Shown here piece by piece: positions 57,189 through 61,644 of a DNA stretch of 64,000 nucleotides. Below the pieces are notes generated by a model that was given only the letters and a program-made list of their open reading frames with translations, searched no databases and was not told the DNA's origin. How positions within the stretch are numbered: position 1 is the first letter of the stretch; every line of letters begins with the position of its first letter. Position numbers and translations under genes: made by a program. This DNA is from Ensifer adhaerens (GTDB lineage: Bacteria; Pseudomonadota; Alphaproteobacteria; Rhizobiales; Rhizobiaceae), in the NCBI RefSeq assembly GCF_002007205.1, contig NZ_LAZS01000001.1:248001-312000 (forward strand), written 5' to 3'.

Positions 57189-57424
57189 AGTCTTCGAGGT
57201 CCGATTGCCGCGGGCGGGCCTCGGCGGCCGGCCTTGCCGCCGGACGGACAAGTTTCTATATGTCGCGGAACTGAAAGTCCTGCGGCGAGCTTTGCGCATC
57301 CGAGTGGATGCTGGGCGCCGTGGAGGCAAAGATGCCTTGCGCCGAGGGTTCCTCGGCAAAGCATCGCATGAAGCGTGAAACAGGGCAGGCTGAGGAATGC
57401 CGCCCTAAGGCCGGATTGGATCCT

Positions 57425-58621
57425 GTGAACAGTCTCGATTTTGACCGCAAGCCCGAAGATACGCGTGTCGTCGTTGCCATGTCCGGCGGCGTCGACAGTT
57501 CGGTGGTCGCCGGCCTGCTCAAACGCGAGGGCTATGACGTTCTCGGCATCACGCTGCAGCTTTACGATCACGGCGCTGCGGTGCACCGGGCCGGCTCCTG
57601 CTGCGCCGGCCAGGACATCGACGATGCGCGCCGCGTCTGCGAAACGCTCGGCATCCCGCACTATGTGCTCGATTACGAAGCGCGCTTCCGGGAAACGGTG
57701 ATCAATCCATTCGCCGAAAGCTATATCGCCGGCGAAACGCCGATCCCGTGCGTTGCCTGCAACCAGACGGTCAAGTTCGCCGATCTGCTTGCGACCGCCA
57801 AGGAGCTCGGCGCCGATGCGCTGGCGACCGGCCACTACATCCGCTCGCGCCCGAGCCCGAACCCACGCTACGCCGGCCAGCGGGCGCTTTACCGTCCGAC
57901 CGATGCCGAGCGCGACCAGAGCTACTTCCTGTTTGCGACGACCCAGGAGCAGATCGACTATCTGCGCTTTCCGCTTGGCGGTTATTCCAAGGCCGAGACG
58001 CGCAAGTTTGCCGAGGACATGGGCCTCGTCGTCGCCCAGAAGGCCGACAGCCAGGACATCTGTTTCGTGCCGCAGGGCAAGTACAGCGACATCGTCTCGA
58101 AGCTGAAGCCGAATGCGGCGCTGTCGGGCGAGATCGTGCATCTCGACGGCCGCGTGCTCGGCACCCACGAGGGCATCCTGCACTTCACCATCGGCCAGCG
58201 CCGCGGCATCGGCATCGCCACCGGCGAGCCGCTCTATGTCGTCTATCTCGACGCCCGCTCGCGTCGCGTCATCGTCGGCCCCAAGGAAGCGCTGGAGACG
58301 CGCCGCGTCTATCTGCGCGACGTCAACTGGCTCGGGGACGAAGACGTCGAGACGGCGGCCGCGCGCGGCTTCGACTGTTTCGCCAAGGTACGCTCCACCC
58401 GCCAGCCGGCGCCAGCCGTGCTCGCGATGGATGACGAGGGCATCTATGTGGAACTCGCCGAAGGCGAAGCCGGCATCGCGCCCGGCCAGGCCTGCGCGCT
58501 CTATTCCGGCGTCGGCGAGGACGCACGCGTTTATGGCGGCGGATTCATTCGCAAATCGGAACGCGAAGCGAGTGCAGAAGCGGCCCTGAAGGCGCTGCTT
58601 TCGGCGCCGGCGGCCGCTTGA
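57425..58621 (+). CDS. mnmA: tRNA-specific 2-thiouridylase MnmA
   Basis: Product of 398 residues from the GTG at 57425, preceded by GGATTGGA; earlier in-frame codons to 57308 encode sequence not typical of the family. The PP-loop is [20 protein letters not shown]. The catalytic cysteines lie in [12 protein letters not shown] and [13 protein letters not shown]. MnmA uses ATP and sulfur from a relay to make 2-thiouridine at position 34 of tRNAs for Lys, Glu and Gln. It is followed by tRNA-Met. Confidence 0.95.
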
Positions 58622-58756: not shown

Positions 58757-58833
58757 GGCGGAGTAGCTCAGTAGGTTAGAGCAGAGGAATCATAATCCTT
58801 GTGTCGGGGGTTCGAATCCCTCCTCCGCTACCA
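58757..58833 (+). tRNA. tRNA-Met (CAT), probably the elongator
   Basis: The 77 bases fold as a cloverleaf: acceptor GGCGGAG with CTCCGCT, D arm GCTC/GAGC, anticodon stem GAGGA/TCCTT around loop ATCATAA (anticodon CAT), T stem GGGGG/CCCTC with TTCGAAT, and an encoded CCA end. It has no initiator-specific run of three G-C pairs in the anticodon stem, and its body differs from the lysidine-modified tRNA-Ile, so elongator Met is favoured. Its last bases are the left repeat of the island. Confidence 0.95.
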
Positions 58834-58834
58834 T
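58821..58834 (+). repeat. Left attachment-type direct repeat (in tRNA-Met)
   Basis: Fourteen bases, TCCTCCGCTACCAT, cover the acceptor-stem 3' strand and CCA of the tRNA. The copy at 61184 is identical. Confidence 0.85.
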
Positions 58835-58958
58835 ACGTCCCCCCAATAGTTCAGCCTTGGCGCCAATGAGCGCTGACAGGTGGCCAATCACTTCAACTGC
58901 AACGCCGCCGCGGTCTTCGCAGCCCGCCCTCGGCCGTCGGCCGGGCGTGTACGGTCCT

Positions 58959-59220
58959 GGCGAAATCCTCCTCTTTGCATTTGATATCCTTTGTCTCGAC
59001 GGTCGCGACCTGCGCCAGCTGCCATATGTCCAGCGCCGGCAATGCTCGATCAGCTTCTTGCCAGTCGCGACGGGACGATCCGACTTTCGCAGGAAGTCGA
59101 AGCGGATGGCGCTGACTTCTTCCGCGTCGCCTGCGAGTGGGATTAGAGCGGATCGTCGCCGAAGCGAAACGCGACACCGTCCACCTGTCCCACGAGCCGG
59201 CAAGCAGTTGGCAGTTTGCT
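58959..59220 (+). pseudogene. Frameshifted remnant of a LigD-type ATP-dependent DNA ligase domain
   Basis: Three short frames in succession read as one ligase-domain fragment: GEILLFAFDILCLDGRDLRQ then LPYVQRR (58959-59039), AMLDQLLASRDGTIRL then SQEVEADGADFFRVACEW (59039-59140), and GLERIVAEAKRDTV (59140 on). This order matches the LigD/ligase sequence AFDLLxLDGxDLR, xxLL, I(R)xSE..., ACxxGLEGIVxK. Two frameshifts and a TAG (59144) break it, and the adenylation Lys region and the end are missing. It is a decayed gene piece carried in the island. Confidence 0.7.
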
Positions 59221-59345
59221 CTTACCTCACTCCGGCGTGGGCATCATGAGATACAATCTATGGCAGCGCTGGAACATTATTCAACGCTAGACAAACGTCG
59301 GCACGTTCTCTACCGGGGGGCGGGAATGGACTGTGGGGGGCGCAG

Positions 59346-61076
59346 GTGAACCTGAAAGACGTCGCTGGATATATTAAAGCCGCGGATCAAATTAGCATCA
59401 TAATGGGGGCAGGGGCATCTCGCACCGCTGGGATACCTACGGCGCCTTTGTTGGTAAAACGCGTCAACGAGGCTTTTGGCCACTGTCTAGGTGGTCTGTC
59501 AGACGTGGAGCGTTCTGATTATGGTCGAGTGATGGGTGCGTTAGCGCCTGGAGACCGTAAGTCGCTGATCCAGCCCTTGCTCGATGAATCACGGGTAAAT
59601 TGGGGCCATATCGCACTTGCGTGCATCACGAGGCACGCGAAAGTGAAAAGAATGCTCACGTTCAACTTCGATCTGATCTTGGAGAGGGCCGCGTCACTCG
59701 TCGGCATTCACCTTCCGGTTTACGATTTTGGAGTCGCCCCAACTCGGGATATTGGGGGATTGGCTGCACCTGCGATTTTCCACCTTCACGGACAGAGTTA
59801 TGGGCTCCGCTTGATGAATTCCGAGGCGGAGACTGCTGCGCATAAGGAGACGCTGCGGCCCCTACTAGCCGATAGCCTCCGAAACCACCTAACGATAGTG
59901 ATCGGCTATAGCGGTGAAGCTGACGCGGCGTTTAAGGTAATGGAAGAGGAGTTCAATTCACATCAAAACCTTATATGGCTTGGGTACGAAGCCGAGCCTA
60001 AGCCGCACCTTTCAGGTCTGCTTTCTAAAGACTACGCATTCTATATTGGCGGGTGCGATTTCGATCGAACGATGATCGATCTTGCCGAGACGCTGGGCTG
60101 TTGGCCGCCACTCGTCATAACCAATCCATCTCGGCATATCCTTACAGAACTCACTGAAGTTGCAACGTATCCGGTAGAGCCTGAAACAGGGCTCGATTTG
60201 CTGACATCCACGCGGCGTCGCTTAGAAGAAGCGGCCGATCAATGGGAGATAAGCAAGGACGGAGAAGCACGAGCTCAAGATGCGCTGATAAGCGGCGTAA
60301 CCCCGGACCCCACAGAGGCCGGTGGAGCGCTGTCTGAAAACGAACTTGAAGCGCGGGCTTGGTCGAAGATTACGGAGGGTCACGAAAGGATCCAGGAAAC
60401 AGTAGGCGGCCGCCCAAAGGAGGCAGTTTTGGAGGCGTGCCGGTTTGCCGCCTCCAGGTATGAGGAAGCTATCGCCTTGAAGCCCGACATCTACCAAGCG
60501 TGGCAAGCGTGGGGCGCAGCTCTGTTTATCGAAGCTTCCCGACACGATGATGTTCAGGAGCGCATGGCAACCCGCAGGCTTGCTCAAGAAAAATTTGCGA
60601 AGGCCGAGCAGTTGGCGCCGGGCAACCCTCGTACTCTGCTTAGCTGGGCTCGCGTTCTTGCCGATGGCGTTGGTGATATGAAGGGCAATGAGGCGCAGGA
60701 ACGATTTACGGCGGCTAAAGAGAAATTCTATGAAGTCCTACGTCTTCAACCCGACAACGGAATTGCTTACGATTCGCTCGGGGCACTCTTTCTTCGTCAA
60801 AGCAATGTTTTGACAGGCGGTGAGCGCGAGAAACTTCTGGCCGAAGCAGCTGAAGTGCTTGATAAGGCCAAAGCATTTATTGGGAAGGCCAACTATAATA
60901 GAGCCTGCGTGTACGCGATGCAGGGTGATTTGGACAATGCTATCGCTGAACTCAAGGCATGCCTTGCAGATGGGACGCTTCCATCTCGAAAGCATCTCAA
61001 TGAAGATACTGACATGGATCTCCTGCGCGATGAGCCAGAATTCCTCTCAGTGTTAAATCAAGCAAAGGCGGACTGA
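59346..61076 (+). CDS. SIR2-domain plus TPR protein, probable NAD-dependent defence effector
   Basis: Product of 576 residues from a GTG after a G-rich site (GGGGGGCG). Residues 1-250 are a SIR2-type domain: MGAGASRTAGIP (GAG-x-S-x3-GIP, 20-31), TFNFD (105-109), and HLHG with the catalytic His148, then GYSG (187-190). No zinc-finger cysteines of deacetylase sirtuins are seen. A linker rich in Glu/Ala precedes four or five TPR-like repeats from about 360 to 560 (RYEEAIALKPDIYQAWQAWG, KFYEVLRLQPDNGIAYDSLG). SIR2 domains joined to sensor repeats act as NADases that deplete NAD during phage infection. It is single, foreign-looking, and lies within the tRNA island. Confidence 0.85.
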   Translation: MNLKDVAGYIKAADQISIIMGAGASRTAGIPTAPLLVKRVNEAFGHCLGGLSDVERSDYGRVMGALAPGDRKSLIQPLLDESRVNWGHIALACITRHAKVKRMLTFNFDLILERAASLVGIHLPVYDFGVAPTRDIGGLAAPAIFHLHGQSYGLRLMNSEAETAAHKETLRPLLADSLRNHLTIVIGYSGEADAAFKVMEEEFNSHQNLIWLGYEAEPKPHLSGLLSKDYAFYIGGCDFDRTMIDLAETLGCWPPLVITNPSRHILTELTEVATYPVEPETGLDLLTSTRRRLEEAADQWEISKDGEARAQDALISGVTPDPTEAGGALSENELEARAWSKITEGHERIQETVGGRPKEAVLEACRFAASRYEEAIALKPDIYQAWQAWGAALFIEASRHDDVQERMATRRLAQEKFAKAEQLAPGNPRTLLSWARVLADGVGDMKGNEAQERFTAAKEKFYEVLRLQPDNGIAYDSLGALFLRQSNVLTGGEREKLLAEAAEVLDKAKAFIGKANYNRACVYAMQGDLDNAIAELKACLADGTLPSRKHLNEDTDMDLLRDEPEFLSVLNQAKAD

Positions 61077-61183
61077 ATTAGTTCTCCAGAGAAACTTTAA
61101 ATATTTATCTTTGCCTCTTAGTGGTCTTACCGAACTACGCAACCGAGCGGCGGATCAATAAGCGGGGGGATAGCGTGAGACGG

Positions 61184-61197
61184 TCCTCCGCTACCAT
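61184..61197 (+). repeat. Right attachment-type direct repeat
   Basis: Second exact copy of TCCTCCGCTACCAT, 2363 bases after the first. It is outside any gene and marks the distal island boundary. Confidence 0.8.
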
Positions 61198-61278
61198 TTT
61201 CCTCGCATCTAGACAAAATCGCGGACGGGCGCTGATCCGTCGATCGTCTGGCATTCTTGAATGCGGCTTACTCTCCCC

Positions 61279-61644
61279 TCAATGATGAGGCGGCTTCAGC
61301 GGCAAGGTCAGCGCCGGCCCGCTCTTGACCCCGAACTGCCGTCTGAACTGCCTCGATGCGCTGCCGTCAAACAGCGATTGCGGCAGCGGTGTGCTAATTG
61401 CCCATTTGTATTTGCCTTCCGGATCATTGCTCAGATCCTGATGTGTCACCGCGCTGAGCGGCAACACGTATTCCGGCTTGCGCAGGCCTCGCTCGGAATT
61501 GCCGAGCCACGTCAGCACGACCAGGATTTCGCCGCCGAGTTCCAATGCATCGAGTGCGAGCGGTTTGCCGCCGACGGATGCACGCACCGCCTGTTCGTGG
61601 AACTTGAATGCGCTGAGTTTCAGCTCGTTTTGCGAATCCGTCAT
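61279..61644 (-). CDS. Conserved-looking small protein of unknown function
   Basis: Product of 121 residues from the ATG at 61644, six bases after GGAAGG. The chain is a mix of predicted beta strands and helix (ALELGGEILVVLTWLGNSER, GKYKWAISTPLP) and ends with a Gly/Pro/Leu segment (PALTLPLKPPHH). I do not recognise a domain. A longer frame runs upstream to 62280, but its composition is unlike a real gene. It is the first gene right of the island boundary on this strand. Confidence 0.6.
   Translation of the reverse strand: MTDSQNELKLSAFKFHEQAVRASVGGKPLALDALELGGEILVVLTWLGNSERGLRKPEYVLPLSAVTHQDLSNDPEGKYKWAISTPLPQSLFDGSASRQFRRQFGVKSGPALTLPLKPPHH

Follow-up and report, generated by a model that had tools for sequence, protein, structure and literature searches.

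How a single intact gene comes to lie between two copies of the end of a tRNA gene is the question raised by a 2.4-kb stretch of the Ensifer adhaerens genome, located in the 64-kb window that we analysed (64,000 nucleotides; contig NZ_LAZS01000001.1, positions 248,001 to 312,000; coordinates below count from the first base of this window). The gene encodes a protein, here termed SIR2-TPR, that combines an N-terminal SIR2 domain with a C-terminal array of tetratricopeptide repeats (TPR). From the sequence and a predicted structure we consider it probable that the stretch is the scar of a prophage that integrated by means of a large serine recombinase (LSR). For its surviving cargo, SIR2-TPR, the most likely role is abortive infection by a single gene, whose product would be an NADase with a TPR sensor.

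The integration target is a tRNA-Met gene with the anticodon CAT (58757-58833, plus strand, detected with ARAGORN), which lies downstream of the same gene in all 15 of the other genus genomes fetched. Its 3' end is duplicated exactly, as the first-pass annotation had reported: the left repeat, TCCTCCGCTACCAT (58821-58834, plus strand), constitutes the core of the left attachment site (attL), and an identical 14-bp repeat (61184-61197, plus strand) constitutes that of the right one (attR). The window holds two copies of TCCTCCGCTACCAT, and the repeat is beyond chance because none of 100 dinucleotide shuffles held a copy. Between the repeats lie about 2.35 kb with one intact gene, SIR2-TPR, a 576-codon open reading frame (ORF) with a GTG start at 59346-61076 on the plus strand. 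The claimed fall in GC content is likewise present: 58835-61183 has 0.550 and the SIR2 ORF 0.537, compared with 0.595 in the 5 kb to the left, 0.618 in the 2.8 kb to the right and 0.624 in the window, with a GC content at third codon positions of 0.538 in the SIR2 ORF versus 0.804 in the neighbouring upstream ORF (57308-58621). The base composition between the repeats fits foreign DNA.

What kind of DNA this was is revealed by two broken genes and the two ends. On the minus strand, 58790-58909 carries the last 39 codons and the stop of an LSR gene, recovered by tblastn with the LSR of a complete prophage from another genome of the genus (G007); its 39 residues (58793-58909) are 95% identical to that protein (E 1e-16). 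The reading frame terminates within the tRNA gene, and about 14 of the 39 residues are encoded by the tRNA itself; a trivial LSR match of 14-16 residues arises at every such tRNA, and only longer matches were counted. Outside the core, the stub DNA is 85% identical to the G007 prophage over 75 bp (E 3e-18). Beyond it, on the plus strand, lies a scrap of a broken phage-type ATP-dependent DNA ligase gene (58919-59136), 82% identical to the ligase gene of the G007 prophage over 220 columns with two gap places (E 2e-58), split over two frames with an in-frame stop, and matched by the Pfam model DNA_ligase_A_M weakly, below its cut-off. The right end of the element (61139-61183, plus strand) contains the arm GGGGGGAT at 61164-61171, the inverted counterpart of which is the left attachment arm CGTCCCCCC (58836-58844, plus strand). 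Over 61 bp, the segment 61139-61199 is 84% identical to the corresponding end of the G007 prophage (E 6e-13).

The first-pass annotation had described a minimal island carrying one gene and no integrase. There is indeed one intact gene and no intact integrase, but the last 39 residues of an LSR remain, and because of this stub we reject a minimal island without a recombinase history; the stretch is rather what a large LSR prophage left behind, recognisable integrase and ligase debris included. The broader part of that account, namely integration at the tRNA followed by loss of the recombinase and retention of one cargo gene, is borne out by the LSR stub and by debris in prophage order.

The G007 prophage provides the parent type. 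It is a 44.7-kb contractile-tailed prophage at the same tRNA-Met, with an identical 13-bp core at both ends (1418 and 46162 of the oriented stretch) and an LSR comprising Resolvase, Recombinase and zinc-ribbon domains. Nine of its proteins were tested, giving terminase, head decoration, tail sheath, tape measure, baseplate and tail-fibre matches, and its structural genes are followed by the ligase gene, cargo and attR. The LSR stub, ligase scrap and right end of the window are colinear with this prophage, with the head and tail genes gone, and since these three pieces match it in order, we read the stretch as a prophage scar in which the cargo outlived its vehicle. Thus, a temperate LSR phage would have integrated into the 3' end of the tRNA-Met gene, duplicating the core, with its recombinase gene ending inside the tRNA gene and its cargo gene sitting between the DNA-ligase gene and attR. 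Nearly all the DNA from the LSR into the ligase gene would then have been lost through one or a few deletions within the element, along with the 3' part of the ligase, so that the LSR stub, the ligase scrap, SIR2-TPR and attR were left. This deletion history is the simplest reading of an anatomy that is itself directly visible.

The same anatomy might instead be that of a working mini-element, a 2.35-kb satellite-like cassette, excised and moved in trans by an LSR that a related prophage supplies. The stretch retains the two cores and the two arms, which resemble those of an intact prophage, and a 0.9-kb scar of similar build with both cores occupies this site in G010, the nearest relative at the locus (95%). 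The right end of the window element also matches that scar (87% over 46 bp). The G010 stub is just 59% identical to the G007 LSR over 37 residues, and the G010 scar therefore probably stems from a different element. The ends of the cassette in the window, however, are prophage debris in prophage order, as expected from deletion, and it was not seen elsewhere: its right-end pattern with up to two mismatches occurs in one of 394 genomes of the family, its own (G007 and G010 are not listed in this sample), and the exact pattern has no match in viral contigs. We regard a mobile cassette as improbable.

Elements with this type of recombinase are not confined to G007. At E <= 1e-50, LSR matches were found in four of the 16 genomes of the genus, two of them at this tRNA, and the LSR of the free phage RR1-A (NC_021560), in which both inverted arms flank one related core beside the LSR gene, is 69% identical to that of G007. 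The DNA downstream of the LSR was followed in nine further genomes with LSR relatives (G160 was left out), seven of which were uninformative: in four the contig ended first, and three (G118, G313, G344) had no second core within 60 kb. The other two were G426, described below with the cargo, and G242, which has a core-like right end and no ligase match. In G242 the right core of the LSR element overlaps with another LSR gene (L170, 16226-17938); one tRNA-Met may here host two tandem elements. The comparison set holds one genome per species; ORFs in the relatives' loci come from a simple script, and gene names without a family match are a reading of the neighbours.

The first-pass annotation had proposed comparing this site among relatives, and it does vary in the 15 other genomes of the genus (genus size 16). 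Near-empty sites, measured from the tRNA to the right flank, span 167 and 207 bp (G001, G008); the site in G005 spans 447 bp. Other sites carry other cargo. In G006 (L035, 14899-17608), adjacent genes for a C5 cytosine methylase, a NotI-like endonuclease and Vsr form, as judged from their sequences, a restriction-modification set in the same slot, the right flank not being found within the stretch fetched. In G011 (L041, 1639-3467), the site holds the candidate-defence pair PDC-M41A/B, a DUF5131 protein and its partner; ORFs in G015 (L045) resemble this pair by look alone. G012 has a 16.7-kb LSR element with a right core of 12 bp, and six further genomes (G002, G003, G004, G009, G013, G014) have other DNA, with possible LSR stubs in G013 and G014. 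SIR2-TPR DNA is present at none of the 15 sites, and a search with the protein (E <= 1e-5) matched three of the 15 genomes, in the TPR part only. The first-pass annotation had named two observations that would speak against it, among them the same 2.4 kb in all relatives; neither was made at these sites.

If the gene was prophage cargo, its place next to the ligase may be compared with the corresponding place in related prophages. In G007, the interval from ligase to attR contains a TIR-domain protein (TIR_2, 1.3e-7; the ThsB-like model of PADLOC, 5.5e-5) and two ORFs without a family, and this cargo has a GC content of 0.51 against 0.605 for the whole prophage. The provirus G779, with an LSR 85% and a ligase 65% identical, has defence-like genes on both sides of the ligase (L152, 1-1359, 1864-2796 and 5639-7273): beyond it a D12 methyltransferase and a KAP NTPase matched by the PDC-S20, QatA and PifA models, and before it a CBASS cyclase with a 4TM effector. 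The contig ends at the KAP NTPase, so that attR of this provirus falls outside the sequence available. In G426, the ligase is followed by a protein with a sub-cut-off Schlafen/AlbA match and then by the contig end. Thus, among the four other prophages that have the ligase, the neighbours beyond it are clearly defence-like in two, doubtful in one and not so in one, and the idea of a standing cargo slot, which these gene neighbourhoods suggest, rests on few cases.

The protein itself comprises a SIR2 domain (residues ~1-270) and TPR-like helices (~331-572), confirming the SIR2-TPR assignment that had been made from the translation. Pfam SIR2_2 matches above its cut-off (E 1.5e-6), the single-repeat TPR models fall below theirs, and NCBIfam TPR_END_plus matches at 5.9e-13. 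In the 13 aligned proteins (12 relatives and the window protein), the motifs GAG.S, N107-F-D, H146-L-H148-G-Q and GYSG are invariant, and the PADLOC SIR2-Argonaute and PDC-S65 models match all 13, in the SIR2 part only; by profile, the SIR2 of SPARSA is matched at 6e-15. The predicted structure has a mean pLDDT (predicted local distance difference test) of 87.1 and a pTM (predicted TM-score) of 0.63. A fold search against PDB returned 67 hits at E <= 0.001, and 49 of the best 50 are anti-phage SIR2 proteins, among them DSR2 and SPARSA, which head the list, and ThsA, KomBC and AVAST5; a search against BFVD gave no hits at E <= 0.001. Sequence and predicted fold thus point to the anti-phage NADases SPARSA and DSR2, and the defence-like character proposed for the gene gains support from both.

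An alternative is that the gene encodes a metabolic sirtuin, a protein deacylase or regulator with no part in defence. One archaeal Sir2 homologue does stand among the best 50 fold hits, and a short part of the protein gives weak matches to NCBIfam deacylase models. These matches to CobB-type deacylases score 12.5-18.5 bits against curated cut-offs of 243-320, however, the distribution of the gene is patchy, and the fold hits are nearly all defence proteins, which leaves a metabolic role very improbable.

Relatives of SIR2-TPR are few and scattered. A scan of genome contigs yielded nine, the last at 21% identity, and a scan of viral contigs 12, some of them duplicates; both were seeded by short peptide patterns and undercount relatives. 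Among the 394 family genomes, only G206 besides the source genome gives a strong match (E 1e-58), the next being at 1e-13; at E <= 0.001 there are 36 genomes with a match, which in many is confined to the TPR part. Among 397 genomes of the order, three other than its own have a match at E <= 1e-10, one of these matches being interrupted. A phage search with the protein returned four records, all at 20-26% identity. Six of the 12 relatives in the alignment (A2) lie in viral records or in contigs that recur among those records (L088, L095, L099, L102, L105, L106), the viral assignment of L088 and L095 being judged by identical match data or ORFs. Phage-type neighbours include baseplate genes (L088, plus a catalase), an endolysin and a terminase (L099), an integrase (L102) and a phage-type sigma factor (L103, L106). 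SIR2-TPR relatives occur in unrelated prophages. Their TPR part varies in extent, from a short stretch up to many near-identical repeats, with total lengths of 576 to at least 1185 aa. Many near-identical TPR units are seen in L081 (G752; at least 1116 codons) and L099 (1185 aa), a likely case of change in repeat number inside a likely immune sensor. When plasmids were searched with the protein, two of the best 40 of 48 records matched the SIR2 part and the other 38 the TPR part only. TPR tails resembling the TPR part of SIR2-TPR are found at G000:C1:237549-238100 and in Sinorhizobium plasmid records, and some of these lookalikes are recorded as adenylate/guanylate cyclase-domain proteins.

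On this basis the C-terminal TPR array would most likely sense a component of an invader and thereby switch on the N-terminal SIR2 NADase; depletion of NAD+ would abort the infection, with the invader lost and the host gaining. We infer this defence step from the predicted fold, the motifs, the context and the relatives. The invader could also be a plasmid or another mobile element rather than a phage. SPARSA is reported to target plasmids or other mobile elements, and in sequence the SIR2 domain comes closest to those of SIR2-Argonaute systems. On the other hand, neither Argonaute nor APAZ, with which SPARSA senses nucleic acid, is present, TPR folds bind proteins, and the relatives are carried by prophages; we accordingly rate a role against plasmids as rather unlikely, though less so than a mobile cassette. 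Returning to an anti-phage NADase, a wider and more tentative proposal, which we hold to be somewhat nearer to a coin toss than to a conclusion and on the doubtful side of it, is that SIR2-TPR would be an immune receptor of a kind not yet described, encoded by one gene and coupling a SPARSA-type NADase to a length-variable TPR array and not to an Argonaute guide; that this LSR-prophage lineage would carry exchangeable defence modules beside the ligase at the attR end; and that the host would keep the module when the prophage decays.

Whether the host has any use for the gene is a separate matter. The prophage origin would stand equally well if SIR2-TPR were a neutral leftover, silent or useless in the host and simply not yet broken. 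Its absence from all 15 other genomes of the genus makes it possibly a recent arrival, and no promoter-like site was found upstream. Against this, its 576 codons have stayed open while the LSR and ligase genes are broken, and a consensus promoter scan misses other promoter types. One open frame beside two broken genes is suggestive of selection; the two gap places in the 220 columns of the ligase scrap are too few for a firm rate argument. We think a neutral leftover unlikely, albeit the most credible of the alternatives considered.

Several observations weigh against a prophage scar with an NADase defence gene as cargo. No SIR2 match was found in the G007 prophage or in the 31 other LSR loci compared, and no prophage with SIR2-TPR between ligase and attR was found among them. 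About 210 bp between the ligase scrap and the SIR2 gene (59137-59345) have no match in the G007 prophage. A ligase match occurs in only two of the 13 viral records searched, and 11 are without one; the prophage G783 has a single ORF between ligase and attR, with a weak regulator match only. Three of the relatives (L089, L092, L094) lie outside prophages as judged from their neighbours, L089 beside an aminotransferase. No sigma-70-like promoter was detected in 58800-61300, by a consensus scan that is blind to other promoter types. Finally, whole-chain TM-scores to the fold hits are 0.25-0.35 by query length. Because these scores are low, the likeness of fold is clearest for the SIR2 domain, and together with the pTM they make the domain arrangement uncertain.

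The locus would then present a phage-borne defence in the course of turning bacterial: the ends and two broken genes reveal the vehicle, and the lone whole gene is a likely NADase. If so, a dead phage has left immunity behind in its scar. It offers a one-gene candidate system, no named model searched covering its full length, and marks the place near attR in this prophage lineage as a spot in which to look for more cargo. For this site it also illustrates that prophage decay can end with a single gene beside a tRNA.

Among known systems, the closest SIR2 domain by sequence and profile is that of SPARSA (PDB: 8in8, 8jl0). We nevertheless reject membership of this system: no APAZ is fused, the models match the SIR2 part only (e.g. 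89-281 of 558), and Piwi (PF02171) was detected in none of the 13 genomes or records, by a model that may miss divergent short Argonautes. Likewise, PDC-S65 is matched in its SIR2 part only (127-290 of 592 and 11-145 of 503) and not at full length, and the window protein has no match to the Thoeris ThsA models or to SLOG (STALD), with one of the 13 members matching ThsA at 1e-4; we reject membership here too. DSR2, the best fold hit (Foldseek E 2e-7, but a TM-score of only 0.35 by query length), is a single gene with an N-terminal SIR2 NADase and a long helical C-terminal part (PMC11087589), a build that the window protein may share. It is activated by a phage tail-tube protein and needs N133 and H171 (PMC11087589), which by our assignment correspond by motif to N107 and H148 of SIR2-TPR. 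It differs in chain length, about 1000 against 576 aa, and in having a sensor of its own where the window protein has TPR. No DSR1 or DSR2 model matches the window protein at E <= 0.001, and membership of the DSR group is likewise rejected; two of the 13 members match Dsr1.

The hotspots of P2/P4 phages and satellites also offer an exchangeable slot for defence genes, with SIR2 and TPR present (PMC9122126). They differ in that their TPR-like repeats are attached to a STAND NTPase, for which there is no counterpart here, and in belonging to other phages and another site (PMC9122126). A survey of viral sirtuins names one in Haloferax virus Halfgib1 (PMC9503650); our match in this virus, 24% identical over 44% of the query, is to a gene recorded as a tetratricopeptide repeat protein, and a SIR2-TPR-like viral protein is therefore already on record. 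A named SIR2-TPR system without STAND or APAZ was not met in the model libraries and literature searched, which is not proof of its being unpublished.

As to the vehicle, the accessible part of a sinorhizobial survey reports tyrosine integrases and one doubtful case, and the element type of the window is not described there (PMC11476347). The nearest likeness is the G007 prophage, which shares its tRNA, core, LSR, ligase and right end with the window, and differs in being complete at 44.7 kb and in having a TIR protein where the window has SIR2-TPR. Phage RR1-A has the G007-like LSR and inverted arms around a related core, and differs in lacking a ligase match. The active Paracoccus phage vB_PamS_Pami6 encodes a serine recombinase and is predicted to integrate at tRNA-Met (PMC6536676); the same kind of integration has thus been published for another host. 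Once its recombinase is lost, a prophage is described as grounded; deletions then erode it, though useful genes may be retained (PMC6379469). LSR phages at tRNA-Met, grounded prophages, phage defence hotspots and the viral sirtuin of Halfgib1 are therefore all known already; compared with the grounded prophages (PMC6379469), decay in the window has reached one whole gene between intact attachment cores.

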